The position numbers and the translations under genes were made by a program. From positions 1 through 64,000 of the forward strand of contig JAUIGV010000012.1 in NCBI GenBank assembly GCA_030432565.1: DNA of 64,000 nucleotides, written 5' to 3'. Numbering within the stretch: the stretch's first letter is position 1; each line of letters opens with the position of its first letter. Positions 36,595-37,709 of the stretch are shown here, one piece after another. Origin of the DNA: Verrucomicrobiia bacterium (GTDB taxonomy: Bacteria > Verrucomicrobiota > Verrucomicrobiia > Verrucomicrobiales > Akkermansiaceae). The notes beneath the pieces are model-generated. The model made no database searches and had not been told where the DNA came from. It saw only the letters and a list, made by a program, of their open reading frames with translations.

Positions 36595-37179
36595 ATGCCA
36601 GAGGATCCATCCGTCAATCCCTACGCCGCCCCTGCAACCTTCAGTCACGATAAGATGACCTTCGCCGGGTTCGAAGTCCTGGGCAATAAGCTTGCCGTGC
36701 AGGACGGTGCGGTTCTTCCTTCCCGCTGTATTAAGACCAACCGGGAAATCTCCCCGGGAGAAAATGGCCGCCCAAAACTCATCAAACTCGCTTGGTCCAA
36801 CCCTTGGTGGGCCCTCCTGATCCTGGTCCCGTATGGCGGCCTCCTGATCTACATCGTTGTGAGCCTCGCGACCCGAAAATCAGGCTCAATTACGGTCCAC
36901 CTTTCCAATCAAGCCATCAAACGAAAGCGTATCTGGCTGGGATCGCTCACCGTCCTCGCTTTCGGAATCCCGGCCATACTCTTCAACATGGATCTCGAAA
37001 TCACCGCGATCATCGGCTTCGCCATCCTCGGCTCCGTGATCCTGCTCCTCATTGCCCTCTTCACCGCCCGATATCTAACTCCCGTAAAATACCAGGAAGG
37101 CTGGTTCATCATCCGCGGAATCAATCGCGAATTCCTCGACGAAATCGCCGCGCAAAACCCGGCCCGTCCGCCGTGCTAG
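36595..37179 (+). CDS. Small membrane protein of unknown function
   Basis: 194 residues. The start has NPYAAPA, a sequence common at the N-terminus of small membrane proteins in Planctomycetes and Verrucomicrobia. A Cys-containing CIKTNREISPGENGRPKLIK segment precedes three membrane helices (about residues 72-90, 115-130 and 137-155). I do not recognise a family function. Its stop overlaps the stop of the convergent peroxiredoxin gene within the sequence CTAG. Confidence 0.6.
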   Translation: MPEDPSVNPYAAPATFSHDKMTFAGFEVLGNKLAVQDGAVLPSRCIKTNREISPGENGRPKLIKLAWSNPWWALLILVPYGGLLIYIVVSLATRKSGSITVHLSNQAIKRKRIWLGSLTVLAFGIPAILFNMDLEITAIIGFAILGSVILLLIALFTARYLTPVKYQEGWFIIRGINREFLDEIAAQNPARPPC

Positions 37180-37709
37180 CGACCGCCGCCAATCAGCTCG
37201 TTGATCCGAACGATCACATCACGCGCCTGTGTCCTCGGATTCACGGCCCGGTCGTGATGCACCAGAATTCCATTCCGAAACAAGAAGGTCTCGCGCCTTG
37301 GCCTGCTGTTGGGATGCTCGATTCGATAAGCATCACAAATCGCTCCGTTCGTATCGCAGAGAAGCGGGAAAGGAATCTCAAACTTATCCGAGAACGCCCG
37401 TTGCTCGGCAATCGTGTCCATCGAAACGCCGATCACCTGAATGTTGTTTTCCGTCAATGTCGCAAATGCAGACCGCAGCGACTTCACTTGCTTGATTCAC
37501 CCCGGCGTATCCGCCTTCGGATAAAAGAACACCACCGCCCACGGCCCGGACGTGGCCTGCTTGAGATTCACCTGCCGGCCAAATTGATCCGGGGCTGACA
37601 ACGATGGCGAACGCCAGCCATGCGCTTGAGGATCCACGTCCTTGTAAACCGTGCACGCCGTCATAAAGACCGCGAAACAAAACAGGGACAAGCAAACGAT
37701 CGCCTTCAT
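37176..37709 (-). CDS. Lipoprotein peroxiredoxin with in-frame TGA at the peroxidatic cysteine (candidate selenoprotein)
   Basis: 177 residues with the TGA read through. The N-terminus LFCFAVFMTAC is a lipoprotein signal with the lipid Cys at residue 19. The thioredoxin-fold core continues as SAPDQFGRQVNL, then WAVVFFYPKADTPG, TGA (residue 71), IKQVKSLRSAF, QVIGVSMDTIAEQRAF and FPLLCDTNGAICDAYRI, with no other disruption. The universal peroxiredoxin motif P-x3-T-x2-C is exact except that the Cys codon is TGA. The usual resolving Cys five residues on is absent, so it would be a one-Sec enzyme reducing peroxides outside the cytoplasm. A SECIS-like hairpin lies 15 bases past the TGA. A pseudogene with a single nonsense codon is the alternative. 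Confidence 0.68.
37459..37482 (-). promoter_or_regulatory. Candidate bacterial SECIS hairpin
   Basis: Reading on the minus strand, a lower stem GUCGC pairs with GCGAC, a three-base U bulge follows on the 3' side, and an upper stem UGC pairs with GCA around the loop GGUCU. The hairpin starts 15 bases after the in-frame TGA; the loop itself begins 22 bases after it. The upper part (UGC-GGUCU-GCA) is almost the same as the apex of the E. coli fdhF SECIS (UGC-AGGUCU-GCA) as I remember it, including the GU that binds SelB. The hairpin is inside the coding sequence, as expected for bacterial SECIS. Confidence 0.6.

Follow-up and report, generated by a model that had tools for sequence, protein, structure and literature searches.

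A gene in a 64,000-nucleotide stretch of DNA (the window, taken throughout at its full length) from a marine, Akkermansiaceae-like verrucomicrobial bacterium raises the question of whether a TGA codon lying exactly where peroxiredoxins carry their peroxidatic cysteine is a stop or specifies selenocysteine (Sec). The gene is encoded on the minus strand, which the preliminary description had left unstated, and runs from an ATG at 37709, preceded by an AGGA-like ribosome site, to a TAG at 37178-37176 (Table 1). Its translation reads MKAIVCLSLFCFAVFMTAC...FFYPKADTPG*IKQVKSLRSAF...INELIGGGR* and bears out three earlier claims: the TGA follows PKADTPG at codon 71, precisely at the peroxidatic position of the motif; it is the sole internal stop, the frame continuing for 106 codons without another lesion until the TAG; and gene callers split the gene into pieces of 70 and 103 amino acids, the second of which begins at an internal GTG. 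The Pfam AhpC-TSA profile matches the read-through product across the TGA (98.8 bits, residues 34-151).

Table 1. Features of the Sec-peroxiredoxin locus, in coordinates of the window
Feature	Position	Strand	Remarks
Sec-peroxiredoxin gene	37176..37709	-	177 codons + TAG; AhpC/TSA fold, BCP/PrxQ-like
Signal peptide with lipobox (MKAIVCLSLFCFAVFMTA-C19), predicted lipoprotein	37653..37709	-	sequence inspection
In-frame TGA, read as selenocysteine 71	37497..37499	-	peroxidatic position of PxxxTxxC motif (PKADTPG-U)
Predicted bacterial SECIS hairpin, GUCGCUGC-GGUCU-GCA-UUU-GCGAC	37459..37482	-	8 bp, 3-nt 3' bulge
Cys125 codon, candidate alternative resolving residue	37335..37337	-	role inferred from conservation
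Exported alpha/beta-hydrolase (esterase-like) gene	37746..38579	-	upstream neighbour, ends 37 bp before peroxiredoxin start

Homologues were sampled from 97 related genomes and by a scan of public genome contigs. TGA occupies codon 71 in at least 22 distinct relatives, ranging in identity from 98% to about 40%; these come from MAGs named Akkermansiaceae, Verrucomicrobiales or Verrucomicrobiota and include every close relative. In the Cys-type homologues, 74 distinct sequences, the peroxidatic codon is always TGC or TGT, and no residue besides Sec (TGA) or Cys was encountered there among the homologues compared. The preliminary description had regarded stops scattered over other positions as a sign of decay; no such scatter was found, with TGA or Cys placed at exactly codon 71. 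A further sequence, from a MAG labelled 'Gammaproteobacteria' (L068; contig CAKZQE010000174.1, 2838-3263), joins a Sec-containing half with a 79% match to the target's clade to a BCP start that is unrelated and has no lipobox, and is likely a chimeric contig or a product of recombination.

In bacterial selenoprotein synthesis SelB and a hairpin in the message bind Sec-tRNA(Sec), whereby Sec is inserted at UGA, and in a peroxiredoxin the selenolate reduces peroxide. The absence of selA, selB and selC from the window had been noted as a weakness of the selenoprotein reading, and is answered by the whole genome (5.9 Mb, 97% complete), which encodes a tRNA-Sec with anticodon TCA, SelA (413 bits), SelB (315 bits against a cut-off of 242) and SelD (387 bits). 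The SelD gene has an in-frame TGA of its own (CGGU) and is itself probably a selenoprotein (L026, G000:C73:16415-17344; CGG-U); the structure that follows its TGA is very stable (z -3.67). Across the 97 related genomes, as counted from the matches listed, with the paralogous second Sec-peroxiredoxin pooled and relatedness ignored, SelA is present in 32 of the 34 genomes with the TGA form and in 21 of the 63 others (Fisher P = 2e-9). The TGA form occurs without SelA in two draft MAGs, G001 and G022 (86% and 72% complete), of which G022 keeps the tRNA-Sec.

Downstream of the TGA we predict a bacterial SECIS hairpin in which UGC-GGUCU-GCA tops a lower stem of 5 bp that has a 3-nt bulge, the GGUCU loop (37474-37470) starting 22 nt past the UGA. 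The bSECIS model, as given in PMC13188914, comprises a 3-9 nt apical loop with a G in its first two positions and an upper stem of 4-16 bp, located 16-37 nt from the UGA with an MFE of at most -7.5 kcal/mol, and the hairpin fits it: its loop, read as GGUCU or else as GUC with a closing G-U pair, lies 22-23 nt from the UGA, its upper stem has 4 bp counting the G-U pair (8 bp with the bulge) and its MFE is -11.5. It shares its GGUCU loop and apex with the E. coli fdhF SECIS (UGC-(A)GGUCU-GCA, with UGC-AGGUCU-GCA in fdhF), where the loop lies about 20 nt after the UGA as against 22 here, but the target's stem is bulged by 3 nt on its 3' side and the lower stem sequences are unrelated.

The evidence for this predicted element is comparative and does not derive from single-sequence stability. 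The lone hairpin shows no excess stability over shuffled sequence (z -0.29), and neither does that of E. coli fdhF (z -0.91); a bSECIS scan requiring an uninterrupted stem of 5 bp missed the target and gave no separation between Sec genes (11/25) and Cys genes (36/74); and Rfam yielded no SECIS match at gathering thresholds or at E values up to 10. Across 15 sequences, however, codons +6 to +10 past the TGA (TCG CTG CGG TCT GCA, encoding S-L-R-S-A) are identical, even though four of these residues have six possible codons and the other has four. Of the 49 codons that specify an invariant residue yet could differ synonymously, only 6 never do so, and 5 of these 6 form this run; outside it 43 of 44 fully conserved residues vary synonymously. 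At the same site the Cys homologues draw their Ser, Leu and Arg codons each from six different codons. At the outermost stem pair (37482-37459, pair 18-41), compared in 13 sequences, 8 have GC, 5 have AU and none has a broken pair; the switch distinguishes even the sisters L029 and L030, which are 98% identical. The more distant Sec forms L047, L049, L051 and L052 have a continuous stem in place of the bulge, with further paired changes. Furthermore, the loop motif is found in 23 of 25 Sec genes as against none of 74 Cys genes. This well-conserved putative SECIS offers material for testing recognition by verrucomicrobial SelB.

These observations bear on three alternatives in which the TGA would not encode Sec. 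Were the peroxiredoxin gene decaying and the TGA a nonsense mutation, an in-frame stop would be expected, and one relative (L046, from an 80%-complete MAG) indeed carries an additional TAG one codon before the TGA, the only extra stop near the TGA within the target's clade. This TAG (G005:C118:2089-2577) stands where the sister sequences have TGG and may be either a genuine nonsense mutation or an error in the MAG. Decay is nevertheless refuted by the identical position of the TGA in no fewer than 22 distinct genes, some with identity as low as about 40% and all, L046 excepted, free of further lesions, and by purifying selection that is equal on both sides of it: among 14 clade members median dN/dS in the proposed frame is 0.126 before the TGA and 0.125 after it, as against 1.6-2.8 in shifted frames. 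Such low, frame-specific values after the TGA imply that the part past it is translated in the proposed frame, and we consider a pseudogene exceedingly improbable. A sequencing or assembly error is even harder to credit, despite a Cys codon (TGC or TGT) being a single base away: the TGA recurs in independent MAGs from several projects and collections, which refutes such an error, and a miscalled base could neither have frozen codons +6 to +10 nor have yielded a compensatory pair. Decoding by an amino acid other than Sec, through reassignment to Trp or unspecific near-cognate read-through, would account for the frame being kept across the TGA, as any read-through needs. However, TGA terminates 10 of the 37 non-overlapping long ORFs of the window and is therefore not simply reassigned; the homologues offer only Cys as the counterpart residue, the genome has the complete Sec machinery, and the hairpin motif goes with the TGA form. 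We accordingly reject TGA as Trp on comparative grounds and regard non-Sec decoding in general as very unlikely.

The Sec machinery, the TGA/Cys pairing at one codon and the comparatively supported SECIS-type hairpin all favor the selenoprotein reading originally proposed, and we are almost certain of the explanation as a whole, namely an exported, probably lipid-anchored, Sec-containing peroxiredoxin of the BCP/PrxQ type whose UGA is decoded by means of SelB and the hairpin. We infer that in vivo Sec-tRNA(Sec), brought by SelB, would decode the UGA at codon 71 under the direction of the hairpin 22 nt beyond it, with its fdhF-like loop, the Sec being supplied by SelA and SelD. A fourth alternative accepts the selenoprotein and questions its function, seeing in it a thiol:disulfide or other redox lipoprotein built on the peroxiredoxin fold. 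The surroundings of the active site do drift within the clade, with TFW replacing TPG ahead of the Sec in the subgroup L043-L046, and peroxidase activity is presumptive throughout the clade. On the other side, the protein shows the hallmarks of the peroxiredoxin (AhpC/TSA) superfamily, i.e. the PxxxT/SxxC(U) motif, a conserved Arg and a thioredoxin-like peroxiredoxin fold. The motif definition in PMC5302317 includes a catalytic Arg, for which the conserved Arg139 is a plausible counterpart. The AlphaFold model of the read-through protein (mean pLDDT 88, pTM 0.81) has among its nearest solved folds the yeast nuclear thiol peroxidase (2a4v), Sulfolobus Bcp1 and Xanthomonas PrxQ, that is, BCP/PrxQ peroxidases. 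A non-peroxidase role appears improbable to us, if less so than the preceding alternatives; as a peroxidase, the protein would use the selenolate of residue 71 to reduce H2O2 or organic hydroperoxides.

How such a selenolate might be regenerated is suggested by the cysteine pattern. The earlier assignment to a '1-Sec type' is only partly supported: none of the 22 clade TGA rows has the usual resolving Cys at +5, which 14 of 14 Cys-type rows have, but Cys125, conserved in the same 22 rows and in none of 11 verrucomicrobial Cys-type rows (alignment A1), is a possible resolver, and the label is tentative. PrxQ proteins are known to differ in where their resolving Cys sits (PMC5302317), and Cys125 is a candidate for this role on the strength of its conservation. 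The gammaproteobacterial homologues L071 and L097 have an equivalent of Cys125 alongside a retained +5 Cys. Two members of the Sec clade (L049 and L052) have a Cys at +4 after the TGA (UIKQC) and not at +5, another possible resolving-Cys arrangement. Following the loss of the +5 Cys, resolution might proceed through Cys125, by way of a selenenylsulfide, or directly through a thiol partner outside the protein, which may be another exported thiol protein.

The predicted lipobox of the target reads FMTAC, and by inspection a lipobox-like Cys lies about 45-60 residues before the Sec in all 22 full-length clade members, whereas most of the Cys homologues carry a signal peptide of the ordinary kind. 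The alpha/beta-hydrolase gene is found directly upstream of the peroxiredoxin gene in the loci of nine relatives, among those with enough flanking sequence. The 37-bp gap and the recurrence of this neighbor suggest that the two genes are co-transcribed and are possible operon partners. Elsewhere in the window, at 6700-7900 on the plus strand, a flavin-dependent halogenase-like frame (VDASGFRSELLGKTLE) is seemingly broken by stops or frameshifts and may be a pseudogene. Standard gene calling cuts the peroxiredoxin gene and its relatives into two fragments, and in this way what looks like a conserved envelope peroxidase of marine Verrucomicrobiota may be overlooked or labelled a pseudogene.

The same genome encodes a second exported Sec-peroxiredoxin (L006, G000:C30:50366-50731), which has the motif TYPKALTGG-U-TSQAC, keeps the +5 Cys and occurs in the TGA form in most of the genus too. 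An exported TlpA/thioredoxin-like protein (L007, G000:C56:46659-47015) has TGA at its first active-site Cys (WGDW-U-GPC); it is probably a third exported selenoprotein and possibly an electron donor. Hairpins with G-rich loops follow both TGAs, GGGAC in the second Sec-peroxiredoxin and GGUC in the TlpA-like gene. We tentatively raise the idea, which we think somewhat unlikely as it stands, of an envelope selenium redox system in which the Sec-lipoprotein peroxiredoxin and the second Sec-peroxiredoxin would act with the TlpA-like selenoprotein as a putative reductant, the resolving Cys having moved from +5 to 125. The peroxiredoxin described here would link the Sec trait to peroxide defence at the cell envelope in Verrucomicrobiota.

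Among curated families the best NCBIfam match of the target is E. coli BCP/thioredoxin-dependent thiol peroxidase (NF006960), or PrxQ, at 74.7 bits; this falls short of the curated cut-off of 140 bits, making the target BCP/PrxQ-like and not a certified member of the PrxQ/BCP equivalog. Unlike E. coli BCP/PrxQ it has Sec in place of Cys, lacks the +5 resolving Cys and is predicted to be exported. PrxU (NF040737), which from its name we take to represent the Sec-peroxiredoxin of Eubacterium acidaminophilum, resembles the target in having Sec at the peroxidatic position, but the target scores only 28 bits against a cut-off of 270 and belongs to a different peroxiredoxin subfamily. TxxU peroxiredoxins are an established selenoprotein family (PMC13188914, PMC9312934, PMC1794560 and PMC5029168), the first to be characterised being that of E. 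acidaminophilum (Soehling 2001, cited in PMC13188914). The target shares with the known Sec-peroxiredoxins (TxxU; PF00578/COG1225 Bcp; PMC13188914 and PMC9312934) the AhpC/TSA fold, the PxxxTxxU motif and the existence of Cys homologues, and differs from them in its N-terminal lipobox signal and the missing +5 Cys. A word search of PMC13188914 and PMC9312934 found no lipobox signal, missing +5 Cys or verrucomicrobial lineage, and Verrucomicrobiota are not mentioned in the searched text of these two papers, PMC1794560 or PMC5029168; literature searches on lipoprotein or Verrucomicrobia selenoproteins returned nothing specific, which is not proof of absence. Peroxiredoxin selenoproteins of Anaeromyxobacter are recorded in PMC1794560, and an Anaeromyxobacter Sec-peroxiredoxin (L138) has the same FFYPKADTPG-U motif as the target, but it retains the +5 Cys and lacks both a lipoprotein signal and an equivalent of Cys125. 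The verrucomicrobial protein is thus a new and well-supported TxxU peroxiredoxin of an already known family, set apart by its predicted lipoprotein signal and altered Cys pattern.
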